NCBI RefSeq assembly: GCF_019703515.2
Contig: NC_059362.1
Coordinates: forward strand, 27,177,826 to 27,241,825
Direction of reading: 5' to 3'
Source of the DNA: Myxocyprinus asiaticus
Taxonomy: Eukaryota; Chordata; Actinopteri; Cypriniformes; Catostomidae
DNA: 64,000 nt
The notes below the pieces were generated by a model. It ran no database searches. It saw nothing but the letters and a program-made list of their open reading frames with translations, and was not told the origin of the DNA. Within the stretch, counting starts at the first letter, position 1, and the number at the start of each line of letters is the position of its first letter. Below, piece by piece: positions 12,296-26,659 of the stretch. A program made the position numbers and the translations under genes.

Positions 12296-15200
12296 TCACA
12301 AATCTTGTTCTCGTTCTTGATGGTTTAGGAATTTGATCAGCCTTGGAGGTACTGGCAGCTTGTTTATTTTCTTTAGTCTGTTGATACCAAGCAGTTCACG
12401 GATTTTAAATCTGCAGAGCTGCATCAGTGGGCGTGGAGGTGCTGCAATCAAAACCAGCAAATTAATAAATGGATGACTGAAATAATTTGCATATATGTGA
12501 ATAATTAAAGCAACAGGTATGGTAAGATGTTTGGGTGCACATACTTGCTTTCTCTTTGATGCAGTCCCAGTCAGGGTAACTGTCCAGATGTTCAGTGAGT
12601 CTTGCACAGGGTTTTACATTACCAACATAGTCAAGTAGCACGTCTATAATCGGTCCTGCCCAGTGTGAGTAGTTGTCAGTGGAGATCATCTCACAGAACT
12701 AGTAAAATTAAAGTTCATTTAACTTTAAAGTTAATAGTGAAGTTAACGTAAAATGAAGTGGAGAAATTATGTACAGTACATTTAATGACTTTGCAAAAGT
12801 AAGCATAATAACAAAGCATGTAAATACATTAATATGCTACTATACGAATCTTAATACAACACTCCATTTTTATACAATATGTAACCGGGGGTCCCTGCTC
12901 TGTCTCTCTATCCACCAAAGAGTCCTTGACCTAAAAATGGTTAAAGACCCCTGCCATACACAATAATTCAAAGAACAAAAACGATCACTCGTGTAATTTG
13001 TGTGCTTCAAACCACCCACCTGAATGCAGGTCTTTTCAGTACTTTCATCTCTGTTATGCCTTTGATTATGTGTCGTCTTTATAGGTGGATGAGGATTGCT
13101 GCCATAAACACATTTGAAGCATGACAAGGCATTGCAGCCATTGTCCATCAGATATTTCAATAAGGTCAGGTGCTTCATGCAGAACATAACAGTGGCTGGA
13201 AAAGTGGTTGGATGAGTTGGAATGTAGGCATTGACATTAGCACCATGTTCCACCAGCAAAGTCACGGTTTTTATGCAACCCTGCCTCAGGGCTACCAGGA
13301 GCGGGTTGAACGTGTCCAGGTTTGGATTTGCACCAGCCTCCAGGAGCATGGTGGTCGCCTCAATGTTGTTGTTTATGACAGCGAAATAGAGAGCTGTGCT
13401 GCGTCGATCTTCATACATTTTAGTGCGATCCTCAGAGAATGTGGCGTTGACGTCAAAGCCGGCCTCAATCAGCAACTCAAGAACATCATCTCGATTGCGC
13501 TCTGCTGCTAAATGCAGGGGGCTGATCCCGGAACGCCGCACTCTGGCCTTGCTTGTGGCTGGGATCAGCATGGATACTATCCTGAAAGTGAAAGTTTTGT
13601 GCTCTTGTGTGTTACATGACTTCCTTGTGTACACTTAAAGGGATAGTTCTCCCCAAAATGAAATTTTGTCAGCATTCAAAACCCTCATGTTGTTCCAGAT
13701 CTATATTACACTTTTTTCTTCTGTGGAACACACAAGGAAATGTTAGACGGAACGAGAGATTCAGTGACATTCACTTTCAATGAAAAGAAGATGCAACGAA
13801 AGTAAAAAGTGACTAACTTTTGTTTTCAACAGAAGATAAAAAGTCATACAGTTTTGGAACAACATGGGGGTTACTAAATATACACTTAATTTACACTTAC
13901 TGTAAGTGTAGACCTAAGTGTGACAAATCACACTTACTGTAGATATGTTAGAATTTGATAGTTAGATTCACCTTTAAATAACATTTATAAGAAGACTAAT
14001 AATACATGTAAACCTATTAAAAGCTGGTGTACAGTGTTTAATGATGATGTCATTTTAGAGGAACATTTCATGCTACCAAAAATTATGGAATGGAATGGAA
14101 TGATTAGTTTAAATGTTAAGTGAGAAAAAGACCCTGCACACAATTGAAATGTAAGCGCAGCATAGTTCTAGCGGGAAGACTAGCAGCTGTACATCATCGC
14201 ACCATTAGCTAGGTAACTCCTAGCCAATCACATGTAAGCCAATGCTTTATAAGTCCGCTCACAATCTATCACATGGCATTTCAGTGCGCTAACACGGCAA
14301 CATCATTCTATAGCACTGTCTGACGCCGAGTCCATTTCGCTCTCTGCTAGCTAACATCCAGCTATGGACACGGACTTATTCACTGCTCCTTACCTTTTAT
14401 CCAGAATCAGCAGTCCTCGCGCAAACACGTCAGCAAATTTCCGGACTCTCAGTGGGATTCCGCCCTCTCGGATTCATAATAGACATGTTCCGACCTCTCC
14501 AGGCCACAGGCGAACCAGTGCACAGAACATCTCTGGAAGCCCGACTTCCCTAACCAACGACGCCGTCTCTTCATCTCAACTTCAGCCCGCATTAAACAAT
14601 CAGCAAACCCGGATCTTCATCCAAATCTCATTCACTTAGGCGATATCCCTCAATCGAGCCACCGCATCCTCAATCGGAACGCACGACCCGCCGCAGAAGG
14701 AGTGTGTTCCTCGCCAAGTCTGTCACAATCATTGGCTCAGGCAGCAGCTGATTTCCATCAGAAATAAGCTAAGTTCTTATCATATCCATCAAATGCATTC
14801 AGATTTAGTCATGGGTCTAGGCCTTCTGTTGCCTATGCCATCTGTTCATCATAACACATCTGCATCAATATCAAAAGGCAATATTTCATGTCAACAGCGC
14901 ATTCGCTCTCATAGTAATGGCAGGCAACCACGCATTCACAGCGTGATCACAAGAGGGTAACTCGGACAGGTTCACTTGCATGTCATTCACCGTGTTGCAT
15001 GCCCGAATGTTCCCCATTGGGAAATTAAGATCATTATTCAGCAGAGCTCATGATGTGTGCACTCAGAGGGAGCATGGCATCACAGTTAAATATAGCCTTC
15101 ACTAAAGTCTCGTGAAAGGGTCCTTAGTGAAATAACTCATTTCGTTCAGTTCAACATCTCGAACGGTGTTCCCTACCCGAGCGCCTTCAAAGGCGCATTA

Positions 15201-18200
15201 ATGCAGCTTCGGAAAATGCAGTGTTCTCTTACTCTATACATACTTCCACATTCTCATTGGAAGCACCACTGTTGTTTCGCGCTTCTGACACCTAGTGGTA
15301 GGCTCCGCACTGCATTCCTTATTCATCAGATAATTTCATTACCAGTGTAATGCATTTTGCGCCTTATATGATCAGGTCATCAGGGGGTAATTCCTATTTC
15401 ACGGCATATTTACATTTTTTTTTTTTTTTTTTTTTACTCATTCAGGCATCATTGAAGTGCACAAATTGGTATCATATGTCTTCGTAAATCCTTCACTTTC
15501 ATCTCTGTTCGGACCATGTTTCAATCTATGTGGATCTTCAAGCATTGGGGCTTTATCAATGTTCCAAATTTCAAAGCTCATGAGTTTAACAGTCATGTTA
15601 GCCTAACTACATTACTTTTAATTTAAGTATCAACACATTTCTGTATGATGCTGTTCACTTTTTTATGATGTGGTCTTGGAAGTTACATTTAGTAGCAGGT
15701 AAGTAGGTTCAGTAATCATTGGATAAAACCTGTGCCGAATCAAGCTCATCAATTTAATCTTGCTGCTATTAATTTCTGTTCCCTATCTGTCACTCACTCG
15801 ATATTGTGTCAATGTAGTGACACTAGGGGTCACTCTTGGGAGCCCCAAACACCTCTGCTTTTTTAAAAAAAAGGCCAGTGAGAATTGGCGAGTGGAATTT
15901 GCATGCCACTCCCCCGGACATACAGGTGTAAAAGGAGCTGGTATGCAACCACTCATTCAGATTTTCTCTTCGGAGCCGAGCGGTTCTTTTCATTGAAGCT
16001 GAATTCATCCGCGAAGTTTATTCACCTCATCTGCTGGATTCTACAGTGCATTTCAGCGGCTTGTCCCCCTCTGCACCCGTGGAGTGCAGAGAACGCCCCT
16101 GGGTGCTTCGGCAGAAACAACTAAAAGAGTATATTTAAAAAAAAAAAGTATTTTCTTTCTAAAAGAGTGGCACACAGAACGTCTTTTTAAAGATGCCTTT
16201 CCGTCTGTGTGTTATTCCTGGTTGCGGTCGATATCTCTCCACTTCTGACGGCCACGATCGCTGTCTTTAGTATCTGGGCGCTACCCACATGGAGACATCA
16301 TTCGTGGATGGGTCTTGTCCTCACTGCGGGAACATAACCATGTCAACATTGCGGTCGCGGCTTGCATTTGTAAGAAAGCAAGCCACCCCAGCAGCTCCCC
16401 ACCTCGGTCCTTCTACCTACGGGTATGAGGCCATGCCGGATAACACTGGGGGCGATTTGGGGACCTCAATGGGACCACCTCCGCTGGGTATCCCCCCACG
16501 GACCTCCCATTCCCCAGCATGCTCACTCGCTCCAGTCAGGCGCTCGGACAAGATCGCTGGCTCGTCTCAGGGCGAGTTTGACATCTCGTTCAGAGCCCGG
16601 GAAGAAGACGAGTTATCGAGTGCAGCATCGGAGAGCGGGCTCATCCAGTCGAACGCAGAGGCTTCAACTAGGCTTCCTCCTTCGGGAGTGGTCGCCCAGG
16701 CCGACGCGGAAATGACGGACATGCTTTCCCGGGTGGCCGCGAGTGTTGTGCTAGAGTGGAACCCTCCGCTCTCCCCTGAACCCTCGCGGCTCAACGATTG
16801 GTTCCTGGGCACGGGGTGCCGGCCACGGCCCCGCCCCGTCCCGTTCCTTTCTTCCCGGAAGTGCATGAGCTGACAAGATCATGGGAGGCACCTTTTACTG
16901 CCCGGTCCCGGTCTTTCAGCTCCCTGGCTCTCGCTACCCTCGATGGTGGAGCGGACAGGGGGTATTCGGTGATCCCCCAGGTGGATAAGGCACTCACGGT
17001 GCACCTGTGTCCGCAGAGCACCGCCACCTGGCGTGGGCACCCGAAACTCCCTTCCAGGGCATGTAGGTTTACGTCGTCCCTGACGGCTAGAGCCTACGGT
17101 GCCACTGGACAAGCCGCCTCTGCCCTGCACGCCATGGCTCTCCTACAAGTACACCAAGCCAAGGTGCTAACAAAACTGCACAAGGGTAGTTCTGACTCGG
17201 GATTGATGCAGGAACTGTGCTCTGTGGCCGACCTCACTCTCCAGGCAACGAAGGTCACGCGTGGTCTCTCAGGCAGTCAATGTCCACCCTGGTGGACCAG
17301 GAGTGCCACCTTTGGCTCAACTTGATTGAGATGCGCGAGGCTGACAAGGCACGGTTCCTTGACGCCCCCATCTCCCAGGTTGGCCTATTCAGCGACACCG
17401 TCGAGGACTTTGCCCAGCAGTTCTCGGTGATGAAGCAGCAGACGGAGGCCATACAGCACATCCTGCCCTGGCGTTGCTCAAGATCCCGCACCCCGTCTGC
17501 TCGTCGCCAAGGGCGTCCTCCTGCAACTACAACACCGGCTCTGCCGCAGCCCGCCCCATGGCCCGGCCCCGGCATGGAGCCCAGCACAGGAAGCAGACGC
17601 CACCCGTCTCATGGCCGGCTGCCAAGAACCCGAGGAAGGCTTCGAAGCGCCCCTGAGACGGGCGACCCAGGGGCAAGGAGACCCGCTTCTCCGGAGCTGG
17701 TGAGCAGATCACTCCATCCCCCAGTGGAGGGCTGGGAGGAGAATCTTTTGTTTCATTTTTACTTAATTTTGCCGCATGTCCAAGAGGCTGCAGTACCCAA
17801 AAATTCCAAAAAAGAGTGGTTTTCTTGTTCCCTGGGTCACATGTTCAGTGTGCACGGCTGTCGTCATGACCACCGTCCACCGTCCCATCTTTGCAGGTAT
17901 GGTGCCCCAGCGGCGGTCCCCCCGCCCCTGTGCGCCCAGCTGTGGCACAAACACGCCCACATGGGATTGGGTCCGGTGGACTACAGGGATGAGACTCCTC
18001 CTCCCTCCTCCTCAGCCAATCTTATGGTGGGCGGCAGGAGCCATGTAAGTGCTTCGATGTCCCTGGACTCAGCACGGCCACGGGGCTCGAATCCCCTCGA
18101 TGTGGCACCTCGAGCTCCACCCTGCCCTGAGTCCCCACCCGCCGGTACATCCGACATGATCATTCCCTTGGTCCCCCTCACCCAGAGTTTGGACGCGTGG

Positions 18201-21200
18201 CTCGTGCTTTCCAACCCGTCGTGGTGGCTGACCCGGACCGTCTGACTCGGCTATGTGCCCAGGTTCAGCAGTGTCCGCTTCACCTCGGTGAAGAGCGAGA
18301 ATGCCGCTACTTTGCGTGCAGAGATTGCTACCCTTCTGCGCAAGGGTGCGATAGAGCCTGTCCCTCCAGCCGAGATGAAGAAAGGGTTCTACAGCCCTTA
18401 CTTCATCGTACCAAAGAAAGGCAGTGGGTTGTGACCAATCCTGGACCTGTGAGTACTGAACCGGGCTTTGCACAGACTCCCGTTCAAGATGCTGATGTAA
18501 AAACACATCCTAGCGAGCATCCGGCATCAAGATTGGTTCGCGGCGGTAGAACTGAAGGACGCGTACATTTACGTCTCGGTCTTACCTCGACATAGACCCT
18601 TCCTGCGGTTTGCCTTCGAAGGCCAGACATACCAGTACAAGGTCCTCCCCTTCGGCCTGTCCCTGTCCCCTCGTGTCTTCACGAAGGTCGCAGAGGCTGC
18701 CCTTGCCCTGCTAAGGGAAGTGGGCGTCTGCATCCTCAACTATCTCGATGACTGGCTAATCCTAGCTCACTCCTGAGAGTTGTTGTGTGCACACAGGGAC
18801 CTTGTGCTCCGGCACCTCGGCCAACTGGAGCTTTGGGTCAACTGGGAAAAGAGCAAGCTCTTCCCGGTTCAGAGCATCTCTCCCCAGTTCAGAGCATCTC
18901 TTTTCTCGGTCTGGAGTTGGACTCAGTCTCGATGACAGCGCGCCTCACGAACAAGCACGCACAGTCATGCCGAACTGTCTGAAGGCGTTCAGACGGAGAG
19001 CAGCGGTTCCACTGAAACTTTTTCAGAGGCTCCTGGGGCATATGGCATCCTCAGCGGCGGCCACACCGCTCGGGTTAATGCATATGAGACCGCTTCAGCC
19101 TCGAGTCCCGAGATGGGCATGGTGCCCTGGGACACATCGCGTGGCCATCACGCCGGGCACACAGCTTCTGGCTCCTGGACTGGCCCTTGGCTGCGTTGGC
19201 ACATCAACTGCCTAGAGCTGTTGGCAGTACTGCTCGCCCTGCGGAGGTTTCGGCCGTTGATCCAGGGCAAGCACGTGTTGGTCCACACAGCATCGGTAGC
19301 TTACATCAACCGCCAAGACGGTCTACGCTCCCATTGCATGTCACAACTCGCCCGCCGTCTCCTCCTCTGGAGTCAGCAGCGCCTCAAGTCGCTACGAGCC
19401 ATTCACATCCCAGGCGACCTCAACACCGCAGCGGATGCACTGTCACGTCAGGTTACCCTCATGGGGAGAGTGGAGACTCCACCCTCAGGTGGTCCAGCTG
19501 ATTTGGAGTCGATTCGGTCGAGCACAGGTAGACCTGTTTGCTTCCCAGGAATCCTCCCACTGCCCGCTTTGGTGCACCCTGACCGAGGCACCTCTTGGTA
19601 TAGATGCGCTGGGACACAGCTGGCCTCCTGGACTATGCAAATACGCATTTCCCCCAGTGACCCTGTGCAAGGTCAGGGAGGACAAGGAGCAGGTCATCCT
19701 AGTAGCACCCTACTGGCCCACCCAGACGTGGTTCTCAGATTTCGCTCTCCTCACGACAGCCCTCCCCGGTGAATTCCTCTGAGGAAGGACATTCTTTCTC
19801 AGGGATGGGGGACAATCTGGAACCTGCGAACAGACCTCTGGAATCTCCACGTCTGGCCCCTGGACGGGACATGGAAGACCTAAGTGGCCTACCACCCGCG
19901 GTGGTAGACACGATCACTCAGGCTAGGGCTCCCTCTACGAGGCGGCTGTATGCCTTGAAGTGGGGTCTGTTCGCTAAGTGGTGTTCTTCCCGATGCGAAG
20001 ACCCCAAGAGATGCGCAGCTGGATCAGTGCTTTCTTTCCGGCAGGAGAGGCTGGAGGGGCGGCTGTTCCCCTCCACCCTGAAGGTGTATTTAGCCACTAT
20101 TTCGGCGCATCAGGATGCAGTAGATGGTAGGTATTTGGGGAAGCACGATTTGATCATCAGGTTCCTGAGAGGCACTAGGAGGTTGAATCCCTCCAGACTG
20201 CGCTTCGTCCCCTCATGGGACCTCTCCGTAGTCCTTCGGGGTCTACAGAGAGCGCCCTTTGAGCCCTTGGAGTCAGCTGAGCTTAAGGCACTCTCTTTTT
20301 TATGACTGCCCTCCTGACTGTGCTCACTTCCATCAAAAGGGTAGGGGACCTGCAGGCATTCTCTGTCAGTGAATCGTGCCTGGAGTTCAGTCCGGGTTAC
20401 TCTCACGTGATCCGGAGACCCCAGCTGGGCTATGTGCCCAAGGTTCCCACGACTCCTTTTAGGGATCAGGTGGTGAACCTGCAAGCGCTGGCCCAGGAGG
20501 AGGCCTTGGCGTTGCTGTGTCCGGTGCATGCTTTACGCATCTATTTGGATCGTACGCAGAGCCTTAGAAGCTCCGAGCAGCTCTTTGTCTGCTTTGGTGG
20601 ACAGCGGAAAGGAAGCACTGTCTCCAAACAGAGGATCGCCCACTGGGTCATCGACGCCATCACGATGGCATATCAGGCTCAAGATTCTACAATCTCCGAG
20701 TTAAGCCGGTCTCATCCCATGTATTGGCAGGCTCGAGCAGGTAAGTTCCGGGACAACTGGCCGGGTGTACCGCTTGCGCATAGCGCCTTTCCCCTCCCTT
20801 GAGGTGAAGATGTGCGCTCTTGACTCCCAGTCATGTTCACAGACTGTGATCCCTGGATGACTTTCCTCCTTATTCCTCTGGCAGCTGAGTTTGTGGAGAA
20901 ACTCACTGACTGGCCCAGTACATGTGCTAATGAGCCCCTGTACTGAGGTAGGTGCTCCACATGTGCTGGTTCCCCGAAGGCGACCCCATGTGATATCTTC
21001 TGCAAAATTGTTTCCCTGACGGCAAACTGCGTCTTCCTTGGGCAGAGGCCCCTCTGCCCCCGGTCGCCATGCTCTATAGAAACTCCTCCCCCTTCAGGGA
21101 AGGACCTACAATGGGATCTCTCCACATGACATACTTCCGACAGGACTTGGTAAGACCATGTGATGTATTCCACTCAAAATACCCCCCCCCCCTTCTGGGC

Positions 21201-24200
21201 AGGGTGTGGTCTCTGCGGTGTCTTCCCCTTGGGAGGGACACCCCCTGACGCAGACACTTATGGCTCCCAGTCAGTTAACAAATTCCACTCTTTTTGGGGA
21301 GAAAAGAGAGGGAAAAGAGGCCTTGGCTGGGCTAGCCTATCCCTATAGTTGGGCCGTCGACTTGTTCCTGATGGACCATTCGATGCTCATAAGAGCGTTG
21401 GGGGAGGTTATGTGACGGCCTGGTGCGCTGGCTACGAGGCACACAACAGTTCAGCTAGTTGTGGCTTTTGTATAGGGACCCCTAGTGTCACCTACATCGA
21501 CACAACGTCAAGTGAGTGACAGATAGGGAACGTCCTGGTTACTTCCGTAACCTCCATTCCCTGATGGAGGGAACGAGATGATGTGTCCCTCTTGCCACAA
21601 CGCTGAACTACCCGCTGAAATGGCTGGGACCTGGTATCGCAAGGTGTTTGGGGCCCCTAGTGTCGCTACATCGACACAACGTCTCGTTCCCTCCATCAGG
21701 GAATGGAGGTTACGAAAGTAACCAGGACATTCCTGCTGGTAAGTAATAGCTCCCTCCTAATCCTTTTGTTATTTCTTCAACTATGTTACCAAATGCCTTA
21801 TTGATTTCAAAGTTATCAATGTTTTCGTTTTTGCTCCGATCAATGTAAGTATATATAGAAAAAAAGTATTTTTGCATTCAGGGCAGCTCTCGTCAGAAGC
21901 AGGCAGTAGGATTCGTTCCTCTGGACATCACAGTGCCAGATAGGTGTTCTTGCAGCAGATAACGAAATTCAGTCCACTGGAGCTGCATGTCATGGACCAT
22001 GCATGGTCTGCTGGTTTTATGGGCTAAAGTACATAAAAAAAAAAAAGAAAAAAAAGGCAGATATCAAAAATGCTTTCAAAATCATGCCCATTCACCCCGC
22101 CGACTGGCCCCTCTCTGGCGTCACGTGGCAGTCAAAATTTTACTTTGCTGTCCGACTCATTTTTGAGTGCAGAAGTAGCCCTCACATTTTAATTCTCTAT
22201 CGGAAGGCCTATGCTGGATACTTCTCAATCACTTTAAGCTCCCCTTCGTACTACACCTGCTCGATGATTTCCTGTTCATCGATCACTCTGATCACCCCAC
22301 TGCCCACACCCCTATTTTTGGATGTTCTATTGAGCTTTTTCACAAGTTGGGTGTTCCTCTCTCAAGTGAAAAAACCATGGGTCCCGCCACGTCTAGAATT
22401 TCTCGGCATCACGCTCGATTCTGTAAACATGCAGGCTTCCCTGCCTAAAGAAACCGACAGGATCAGGTCTATTTGCACATCATTCTCCAGTCAGTTTGGG
22501 TCTCAGAACATGATCTCCTGTCCCTATTAGGCCACCTCAATTTTGCCATACACATCATTCCTCAAGGCTACTCCTTCATTTCCCGCCTCCTCACACTAGC
22601 CCATTCCGTAGACAACCTCTCTGACATCATATCAATCGATGACGGCTGCTGCTCAGACCTCCTCTTCTGGTCACAGCTATTAAATCACTGGAATGCCATT
22701 TCCTTTTTCCACAATAAAAAACACGAATCCCCTTTTCACGGACGCGGCTCCCTCCGTAGGATTCGGGGGATATTTTCTAGGATCATGGTTCACAGGGAAA
22801 TGGCCAGACAAATTTTTCAATATAGCTTCCTACGCTCTCTCATCCGCTGTCTTTGAAATTTATCCCATCGTCATGGCCAGCATTATATGGGGTTCCCTTT
22901 GGACACGCAAACGCGTAGTAGTTTTGCGACAATTCCGTAGTCATCAATAAATCAAAGGCTGGACCTCCTCTAGCCTCATGGCCCTTATGAGATGTCAGAC
23001 ATGGCAGATCATTTCGTGCAACTTCATTATCTCAGCCAGACACATTCCTGGGTTTTTCAATGTAATCGCTGACTCCCTCTCTCGTTTCGCTTCCACTCTT
23101 ACACTCACTTCCTACAACTCCGCCTGGGCCCACTTCCTCCTGCCAATCACACAGTACTCCTCTATTTCCCGTTCTGATCTCCCAGTGTGCATGTTCATTT
23201 CCTTTTGCTTTCACACTAGACATCTCAAATGTCCTCCCCCTATTCATCACTCCATCCCTAGACCCCATGTCATGCTACTGGTTCAGAAACCACCTCACCG
23301 CACCCTAAAACATTGTGGTATCTCCCCTCATGTCTTCTTGGGGCACTCTTTTCGCATCAGAGCAGCTACTACTGCTGCTCTTCAAGGTCACCGGATTCTA
23401 CTGTCAAGATGCTCGGCTGCTGGTCTTCCTCATCCCACCTGAAATATAGTCAACCTATATAATCATCAAACAAGTTCAACTCTCCATCAGCCATTAGTTT
23501 TCATACCTGTCTGGTGGTGGTTGGTGGCTCTTTCATCACATCTTTCCCCACACAATGATTCAATTCAAGCACATCCATCGTTTCACAAGGATAACGCATA
23601 ACTATGTCTACCCTCCTCGCCAGGGCTTCCATAATCTCAAGCATGGTTTCCCTTTGCATAGGTATTGCACAAGCCAGCTCGCCCTTGCCAGAAAGCTCAC
23701 ACTATCATGGGATTTCTTTCAACAGATTATTGCATGACAACATCGTTATTATCGTATGGCTATATGTATGCTGTTCACCTTGGCAAAGATAACCATTAAA
23801 CAACGGCCACCCTCATTGGAGGGCTTGAGTCTCATGGGATATCTTTCAACGAAGGGTATTTCACGCAACGTCACCATTATCGTACGGCTTTACGCATGTT
23901 GTTCACCTTTTGGCAAAGATAACCACCAAACAAGGTCCGCACCCCTCAGAAGGATCATAATCAAATGTTTTCTTTCAACGAAAGGTATTGCACGCCACGT
24001 CACCATTATCGTATGGCTTTACGCTATGTTGTTCATCTTAAAGCAAAGATATTCAAACAACTCTTCCCTCGTCGTAGGGTTTTCATAATCAAACGTTTAT
24101 CTTTCAACAAAGATACTGCACAACAACGCTGGCCTAACGTAGGGCCTCATACCACGTTGTTCATCTTTGGTAAAGATTCTGCACAACCAGGGGCTCCTCG

Positions 24201-26659
24201 GCAGAGGGCCCAAAATCGCACTCAAGGACAAGGATAAAATGAAACTCAGACAAGGACAAAATCAAGAAGGAAAAAAAAAATTCCTATTGCAAAGGTATTG
24301 CACAACCATGCCAGAGATATAGCAGATTTCATGTCAAATCTAGGTGTTCACATCTTTTTTTTTTTTTCAGAATGTACACCTAACACAAGACCTGGCTCGT
24401 ACCTGACTGGATCGTCTCTTTTGGGGGTAGTATTCTACTTTCTCTCTCTTTTGGGGTAGGCTCCTCGCCCCTGCCTCCTATTTCCGGCAGGATAGGATGG
24501 TTCCAAGTACAACTTCTTCGGACCGCCAGACGGGGCTTACGCCAAAGAGAGACATTACATTTCTGTTTTACATTCATCAAATAAATGTCATCTTAAATTT
24601 CACTCAACTCTGCGAGTCTTCCTGATAGAAATGTAAGCGCAGCGTAGTTCTAGTGGGAAGACTAGCAGCTGTTCATCATCGCACCATTAGCTAGGTAACT
24701 CCTAGCTAATCACATGTAAGCCAATGCTTTATAAGTCTGCTCACAATCTATCAAATTGCGTTTCAGTGTGCTAACACGGCAACCTCCACCACCCCACCAC
24801 CACCAGTTGAGTCCCATCCTGCATGGGAGTAGGCTCCTCACCCCTGCCTCCTATCTCCGGCAGGATATGACAGTTCCGAGTACAGCTTCTTCGGACTGCC
24901 AGACGGGGCTTACACCAAAGAGAGACATTACATTTCTGTTTTATATTCATCAAATAAATGTAATCTTAAATTTCACTCAAGTCTGCGAGTCTTCCTGATA
25001 GAAGTATAGTTATAGTTAACAAGACATGACATGTCAGAAAAAAGAACACTTTAAAGTTTTATTTATTTTTTTTTTTTTTTGCTCCTACTACTGGTTGTTA
25101 CAAAGTCAAGCTTCTTGAGTTAAGGTTACAGATTAACACCCTGTTGCCACAGCAAGGTTTTAAACAGCCATTGAGACTTACTTAGTTGCCCTGACATTTT
25201 TGTGGGTACACCCGTAAGTGAGGAGGTGTTTGCTGAAAATTAATGCAAGATCATGAGATTTACTAAACCTAAACTCTTAAGAACCAATGTCCTCTGCATA
25301 TTAATAAGTTGTTTTAAAAAACTTGATTTGAGAACATTAAAAATTTCTCCCAAAATCTCCTATATCACCTTTATTTACAAATTGATTATTAAATTCTACA
25401 TACCCATCATTGCCACGCTGGGCTGCAATATGGATTGGCAACAGTCCTGTTTTTCCAGGCTTGTTGGCATCTGCGTTTTGAGAAAGCAGGAACTCTACAA
25501 TATCCTCATGGCCATTCTTGCAGGCCTCATACAGTGCTGTGGCCCCATCTGCAGCCTGGCTGTTCAGATCTGCACCTGATGGAGAAATAAAGGACAGGAC
25601 AAGCCAATGTTTAGCAGTGCCAAATATCAAATGTAATGCCACAATTGATGGCCAGATGGATTTTGTTGGTGGACTTTCTAAGTTTAACTCAAAGACAACC
25701 CTGCATGCAAACCATGTGGGTGAAAGGTTTGTTACCATTTTTTAAAAGAAAGCGAAGTGCGTCCACTTTTCCACTTTGGGCTGCCACAAAGATAGGAGTG
25801 ATTCCATACATATTGGGTGTGCTGACTTTGGCTCCAGCTTTAACCAGAATCTCACAGATTTCCACATTGTTTCTGCACACAGCCTCATGCAGAGCAGTCC
25901 AGCCTTGAATACAGCTCTTATTCACAGAGGCACCATAGTTCAGTAGCATGACAACCATTGCTGGGTTCTCCTTCTCGCAAGCTACAGATATACAGTATAT
26001 ATAATTTATAACATTACCATCACACCACAGAAGGACATTTTAAATGAAGGGCAAGAAAAACAAGGTTTTTTATAAGAATTTATATAAAATGCATTGCTGT
26101 GGCCAAGTGGTTAAAGACCTGGTTTGGTTATCTAGGTTGTTATGAGCTTTCACAATTGTGCCCTTGTTTAAAGGGATAGTTAACCCAAAAATGTAAATTC
26201 TGTCATTATTTATTAGTCACCATTTAATTTCATTGTATGGAAAAAAGGTGACTGAGACTTAAATACAAAAAAGAAAGTCATATGGGTTTGGAACAACATG
26301 AGGGTGAGTAAAATTACGTCACAGTTTTAATTTTTGGTTGAATTCTCCCTTTAACCTCAGGTTGCCCCTGTAATAAGTGTTCTGTAAGTAATTTTGGATC
26401 AATGTGATTCATAAATGAATAGTTACAATGAATACAATATTACCTCTGTAAAGGGGAGTCTCCTTGTCCTTATTGGCAATATCAGGGTCAGCCCCTTTCT
26501 CAAGTAGAATCTCCACACATGCAAGATGATTCCTGGCAACAGCTAACATTAAAGCAGTCTGTTCCTTCAAAGTGCGCTGATTAATCATCCCAGGTTGAGC
26601 TATGAGAATAGGGTTCATTAACAAAGCAAGAGCAATGTAAGAGTTGGACTAAATTTTTG

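Follow-up and report, generated by a model that had tools for sequence, protein, structure and literature searches.

DIRS1-like retrotransposons have been described as consisting of a left terminus, two internal complementary regions (ICRs) that overlap in a 3-bp circular junction, a right inverted terminal repeat (ITR) and a right extension (PMC3266345). TnDIRS1a of Tetraodon, treated in the same source, starts with GTT, ends with GAT and has AAC as its circular junction. To judge from the consulted accounts, what is known of how DIRS elements integrate comes mainly from a model. We analyse here a stretch of 64,000 nucleotides from Myxocyprinus asiaticus (C19:27177826-27241825; hereafter the window, to which all positions refer), in which a DIRS1-like element lies within a Ngaro-type element and in which one such event can be compared before and after at base resolution; the outcome agrees with the model. 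The genome searches were made in the species' own assembly (2.34 Gb, 345 contigs); a scan of viral contigs yielded one distant contig, which was left out of consideration.

The original prediction held that a DIRS element is nested in a Ngaro element, and that the joined Ngaro flanks should run co-linearly with uninterrupted cyprinid copies. The term is close (the order is Cypriniformes), but Myxocyprinus asiaticus is a sucker and belongs to the Catostomidae. We ran the comparison in small form and within the same genome: the 201 bp left of the insert body (first GTT included) and the 188 bp following it on the right were fused into a single query. This yielded 269 first-look candidates, 40 of which were scored (three further rows were small pieces beside three of these). 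All 40 scored places are co-linear through the junction, with 83-91% identity. For 20 of them we fetched 221 bp around the site: the empty site reads GTT in 19 and TTT in one, and no gap occurs within 22 bases of it. The query contained GTT itself; the letters tallied are those of the other copies. Before insertion the site read TTAATTTCT-GTT-CCTGCTGG; no other change came with the insertion. Because the uninterrupted Ngaro copies are contiguous and gap-free, they support the nesting, the types of the two elements and integration without target-site duplication. Both the predicted nesting and the predicted co-linearity were thereby confirmed, and the junction proved informative on DIRS target choice, as had been expected. 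GTT is, moreover, the trinucleotide predicted by the DIRS terminus and its AAC circular junction, so that there is good support for an integration which used a matching trinucleotide and duplicated no target sequence. Alternatively, two partial Ngaro copies might flank the DIRS by chance or rearrangement, without any insertion into a single element; the truncated coding remains of the Ngaro and the lack of a recognised gene in its left part would fit such a history. Given that both flanks form one contiguous sequence in every fetched copy and run co-linearly in every scored place, we regard this alternative as refuted and give it next to no chance.

The host is a Ngaro-type element on the forward strand (14146-25003), which measures 10,858 bp as it stands and 4,904 bp once the insert is removed, the GAA at each end counted. 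Its boundaries were derived from split direct repeats and from 20 + 20 other copies. The repeats, which the original prediction had already described, indeed stand in the order A1 ... B1-A2-B2: A1 (14148-14304) shows 93.6% identity to A2 (24630-24786) over 157 bp, while B1 (24457-24630), whose terminal GAA runs on into A2, shows 93.0% identity over 172 bp to B2 (24830-25003), which also ends in GAA (24457-24628 aligned with 24830-25001). These similarities are far above chance (BLAST E 1.6e-65 to 1.7e-71). The right end after B2 is GAA in 16 of 20 other copies. The trinucleotide before the first ATG, that is before A1, varies (TAA 7, GAA 5, TCA 4, others 4; n = 20, by eye). A strict Ngaro core was rejected on account of this variable left trinucleotide, despite the GAA on the right, and we claim no target rule for Ngaro. 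Such edges, variable on the left and GAA on the right, contrast with those of the DIRS family, which has GTT at both.

The insert is a DIRS1-like element of 5,954 bp (15778-21731, forward strand), delimited by its termini, its ICRs and the edges found in other copies. It opens with the left core trinucleotide GTT (15778-15780). The left terminus (lTer, 15778-15834) is 89.7% complementary to 21474-21531, and the left ICR (lICR, 21492-21531), which ends in AAC, is 90% complementary to 15778-15817. At the far right end, 21680-21731 is complementary to the right ICR (rICR, 21529-21580), with 95.9% over 49 bp (21532-21580 with 21680-21728). Both ICRs share the AAC circular junction (21529-21531), which is the reverse complement of the terminal GTT and is placed as in the published layout (PMC3266345). 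The shortened right ITR with its right extension (rTer, 21650-21731), recognised by comparison with other copies, closes with the right core trinucleotide ATT (21729-21731) in the context GGAC-ATT. The ICRs overlap in a 3-bp junction that is complementary to the left GTT, with the right ATT one base off. The whole reads lTer / lICR-rICR / rTer plus right extension (rE), the DIRS1 arrangement, rather than one simple inverted repeat. The inverted termini proposed earlier for an insert at 15778-21728 are thus present, but its right edge had to be corrected to 21731 and its layout to that of DIRS1.

Other copies of the insert were obtained with a query from 15700 onwards, which included 78 bases of Ngaro flank; 40 of 1721 candidates were scored. 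Apart from the window itself this gave 39 places, and their matches start at query base 52-82, most of them near 79 (window 15778). Twenty of these 39 places were fetched with their flanks. In 17 of the 20 the right terminus is found, with an identical edge (21721-21731), and 15 of these also contain the ICR stretch in whole or in part; L021, L024 and L025 have no right end within the fetched stretch. These recurrences bear on a further possibility, namely that 21527-21733 is a separate, short and non-autonomous element beside the DIRS, comparable to a miniature inverted-repeat transposable element (MITE). The segment does contain a 73-nt inverted repeat with 88% complementarity. It sits, however, where the rICR and right terminus of a DIRS1-like element belong (PMC3266345), and it accompanies the DIRS in most fetched copies as counted above; we consider the MITE-like alternative refuted and its probability minimal. 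The '200-bp hairpin' at the right end of the DIRS is its internal complementary region together with the right terminus. As a side observation, a second DIRS copy or piece occurs within a few kb of the first in three of the 20 fetched loci (L014, L024, L025). The idea of the Ngaro as a shared insertion hotspot was rejected: the 39 other left ends match at most the last 27 of the 78 Ngaro flank bases, and none of the 37 flanks (20 left, 17 right) of the 20 DIRS copies matched the window Ngaro.

For the edge trinucleotides, two sets of left ends were assembled. To avoid selecting for particular flanks outside the core, the query of the first set started precisely at the edge; 40 of 1251 candidates were scored and 39 others were used, giving GTT in 33, ATT in 4, GAA in 1 and TTT in 1. 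With the left end of copy L022 as query, 40 of 391 candidates were scored, and 20 of the 39 others make up the second set (GTT 19, CTT 1). Over both sets GTT is found in 52 of 59. Left flanks that came from the query with Ngaro flank were excluded from the statistics, because that query favoured similar flanks. On the right side 40 of 108 candidates were scored; 35 right ends (20 from this search and 15 from fetched copies, L014 and L022 having been dropped as misaligned or cut) yielded GTT in 21, and 19 fresh ones added to these yielded it in 12, which brings the total to 33 of 54. ATT occurs at 9 of 54 right ends against 4 of 59 left ends, which is the expected direction, though stated without a formal test and with a right-end query that ended in ATT. 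In one copy (L165) the left flank GTAACCAGA is similar to the right end of the DIRS, GTAACCAGGAC, which may mean that one DIRS adjoins the end of another here.

The nest is placed between ankyrin exons of a minus-strand gene, and both elements are antisense to this gene. Downstream of the presumed intron, an open reading frame (ORF) on the minus strand (12870-13634) carries an ankyrin-repeat exon (Pfam Ank_2, E 1.1e-19); upstream of it, a second minus-strand ORF (25337-25738) carries an exon that is ankyrin-like by eye. Judged by strand and reading rather than by splice sites, the exons on either side would belong to one gene, hence the term intron. Myxocyprinus asiaticus is tetraploid. A genome-wide search with the left host flank gave, apart from the window, a single matching place, located on C25, which we take as the homoeologous intron. 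The alignment reaches 78% (146/188) in the left flank and 88% (479/544) in the right flank, and the host stretch 25078-25615 is 88% conserved in the homoeologous region. The C25 place has neither the Ngaro nor the DIRS: the aligned host blocks are 67 bp apart there, against 10,984 in the window.

Repeat divergences were calculated as Kimura two-parameter (K2P) distances. They amount to 0.067 for A1/A2 and 0.074 for B1/B2 of the Ngaro, and to 0.043 for rICR/rTer (49 bp) and 0.122 for lTer/lICR (37 bp) of the DIRS; all four changes in the last pair are CpG transitions. These values are compatible with the nesting order but lack the resolution to demonstrate it; the nesting itself is what establishes the order.

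Summarizing these observations, we hold it as nearly certain that a Ngaro entered first and that a DIRS circle was then integrated at GTT by its recombinase, without target-site duplication. A Ngaro-type retrotransposon would first have entered the intron of the ankyrin-repeat gene, and a DIRS1-like retrotransposon would later have integrated into that Ngaro. Reverse transcription would have led to a DIRS circle, whose two ends presumably met in one GTT, for which the AAC of the overlapping ICRs served as template. The tyrosine recombinase would then have exchanged strands between the GTT of the circle and that of the Ngaro in TTTCT-GTT-CCTG, which would leave a single GTT on each side and otherwise no change. 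We see directly the site in both states (empty, with a single GTT, and filled) and the AAC junction, and also that nothing further was duplicated or lost and that GTT is generally used in the family. In addition, the first three bases of the insert are the reverse complement of its AAC junction, as the published model requires (PMC3266345). The right ATT is probably a decayed GTT: GGAC-GTT would hold a CpG, so that a single transition (GGAC-GTT to GGAC-ATT) explains it.

Formally, the GTT and ATT at the two edges are also a 3-bp duplication of the GTT of the empty site, as would be expected if the DIRS had entered by a route that makes such duplications (e.g. DDE-type integration) instead of through a recombinase. 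This explanation is very improbable in our view, since the GTT is templated inside the DIRS as the AAC junction and starts the great majority of other copies whatever their flank (the 52 of 59 mentioned above), whereas a duplicated target would vary; moreover, no integrase domain was found in the ORFs of the window and of the genome copies that were scanned with Pfam. Some points do weigh against integration of a circle by the recombinase. The right core is ATT and not GTT, either mutated or tolerated, so that only one of the two edges is exact. The left-end queries began with GTT and the right-end query ended with ATT, which biases the tallies slightly to those letters. The circle and the activity of the recombinase are inferred. 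At C25 the junction, which concerns the Ngaro edge, is T-rich and gapped and can be placed only approximately. Finally, with 37 and 49 bp and large errors, the repeat pairs of the DIRS give no usable date for the second insertion.

The DIRS family is very abundant in Myxocyprinus asiaticus, which makes its target choice measurable, and an initial count suggests a target that is partly palindromic and wider than three bases. The strongest signal in the flanks is an A at position -7, found in 24 of 39 left ends of the first set (Bonferroni 0.003 over 96 tests) and, with the test fixed beforehand, in 11 of 20 of the second set (p 0.014). AAC at -7 to -5, giving AAC-N4-GTT, occurs in 8 of 59 left ends and ranks first among 768 word-by-offset tests. 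The complete AAC was spotted by eye when the second set was inspected (5/20; 3/39 in the first set, p 0.04), so that only genome-wide counts test AAC-N4-GTT independently. For these we counted exact occurrences of AAC-Nx-GTT followed by the next 17 bases of the DIRS; the counts cover the spacings N3, N4 and N5, with AAC as the sole trinucleotide in the arm. AAC-N4-GTT occurs at 1058 places against 344 for N3 and 664 raw (approximately 418 corrected) for N5, which corresponds to ratios of 3.1 over N3, about 2.5 over corrected N5 and 1.6 over raw N5. As a control the N5 count is too high because it includes places derived from ICRs, and its correction (37 of 100 listed places judged ICR-like by eye) is rough. 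Among 100 listed places the N4 words are varied (60 different ones), so the signal does not stem from one duplicated locus. Some words recur (TATA 8, CATG 6 of the 100 listed) and may represent duplicated loci. Given that the 20-base left terminus of the DIRS has 22,289 exact occurrences in the genome (ICR copies included), AAC-N4 is a preference in a minority of insertions and not a rule.

The site in the window, AAT-TTCT-GTT, fits two of the three AAC positions. The circle junction, as deduced from the ends of the element, would read AAC-CAGGAC-GTT-CCC, with the same arms set two bases wider. On balance we favour, with moderate confidence, a DIRS1-like recombinase that prefers a partly palindromic ten-base AAC-N4-GTT, joining at the GTT side, over one that recognises the trinucleotide alone. 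A preference for TTC after the right GTT was considered as well and rejected: the 35 right ends gave T 24, T 24 and C 16, and the pattern was weak in the 19 fresh ones (T+1 11/19, p 0.037; T+2 10/19, p 0.09; C+3 4/19, p 0.44).

Concerning coding capacity, the insert carries remains of reverse transcriptase (RT), RNase H (RH) and tyrosine recombinase (YR) in DIRS order. The original prediction of a gag-RT-RH-YR series is in line with this order but not in its claim of completeness, as pieces are missing and frames are broken. The RT remains (18504-18979, frames broken) were found with tblastn in two pieces (18504-18764 and 18824-18979) using P0004. The RNase H remains (19113-19448; PF17917, E 6.6e-6, in ORF 19113-19769) miss approximately 133 bp at 19155, and comparison with other copies shows that the recombinase remains (19769-20802), spread over two frames, miss approximately 133 bp at 20681. 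All three lie on the forward strand. With Pfam, the DIRS ORFs of the window gave matches to RNase H alone, and the recombinase had none. In copy L028 an ORF matches RVT_1 (E 5.9e-23) and RT_RNaseH is found with E 1e-7; copy L012 gives a weak match to Phage_int_SAM_1, the N-terminal domain of the recombinase (E 0.0031, below the curated cut-off). For the segment missing at 20681, copies L013 and L017 give the reading AHSTR...AAGW, but L016 has a frameshift there; HSTR is a motif of the DIRS recombinase (PMC3266345). In other copies the RNase H stretch T(D/E)ASK lies within the segment missing at 19155. Compared with these copies, the right ITR of the window DIRS is also incomplete, through two losses (net approximately 134 bp; 21639-21654). 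The near-equal size of the losses (~133, ~133 and net ~134 bp) looks coincidental. A methyltransferase domain gave no match at E 0.01 in six genome ORFs scanned, none of which is an intact full-length pol. The DIRS copy in the window cannot move by itself now, and the Ngaro copy is broken too.

Within the Ngaro, a short forward ORF (14364-14639) had been put forward as the start of gag. It found no support and stays an unproven ORF: tblastn with the 120 listed proteins (P0001-P0120) gave no alignment to it at E up to 1, and Pfam gave no match. Remains of RT and RNase H (22057-23088, forward strand, frameshifted) were recognised by tblastn with P0001, P0003, P0004 and others, the first part of the RT being absent or unrecognised. 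A pieced RT/RNase H query of 469 aa hit 531 proteins at E 0.001 or better, and the named top rows are fishes. The P0001 alignment starts at 22057 and extends as far as its HSFRIGAATTAAQRG (window 23388), near which the recombinase motif HSFRI lies; the recombinase remains themselves (23089-23442, forward strand) we read as internally deleted, judging by the alignment. The Ngaro order of RT-RNase H followed by tyrosine recombinase is present, as broken remains. A Pfam scan of the Ngaro ORFs in the window gave zero matches, and neither gag nor hydrolase was recognised in this copy. No methyltransferase was seen in P0001 and P0004, and the window Ngaro is too broken to prove its absence. Between the coding remains and B1 there are tandem repeats of approximately 128 bp (23705-24177, forward strand), 70-74% alike in a self-comparison.

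Both families are already known, and the nesting is an ordinary event between them, albeit with an unusually clean proof; the extended target alone may be new. Among the open-access records listed for nested DIRS/Ngaro elements, empty sites, target preference and palindromic targets, none showed such a target, and the open-access papers searched yielded none on DIRS in Myxocyprinus asiaticus. Dictyostelium DIRS-1 gathers in its own kind; in contrast, only one of the 37 flanks of the 20 copies of the present family held another DIRS. Retroelements of Dictyostelium are reported in centromeres or near tRNA genes (PMC5633606), and with DIRS-1 as presented in that source our element shares the character of a recombinase-bearing retrotransposon that is thought to integrate as a circle.

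The host element resembles Ngaro, to the extent covered by PMC9210276 and PMC4157794, in its A1 ... B1-A2-B2 repeats, of which the B1-A2-B2 block lies downstream of the coding part, in its RT-RH followed by recombinase remains and in that no methyltransferase was seen; it differs through the truncated RT, the broken recombinase, the tandem repeats before B1 and the unrecognised gag and hydrolase. As for the insert, it departs from DIRS1-like elements in that the window copy lacks pieces of RNase H, recombinase and right ITR and that a methyltransferase domain went undetected, while the extended AAC-N4-GTT target does not appear in the available part of the PMC3266345 account of these elements. 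In other respects the agreement with that account is close: inverted termini, ICRs with a 3-bp junction, a right extension, an NTT start, no target-site duplication, RT-RH followed by a probable YR and a length of approximately 6 kb.

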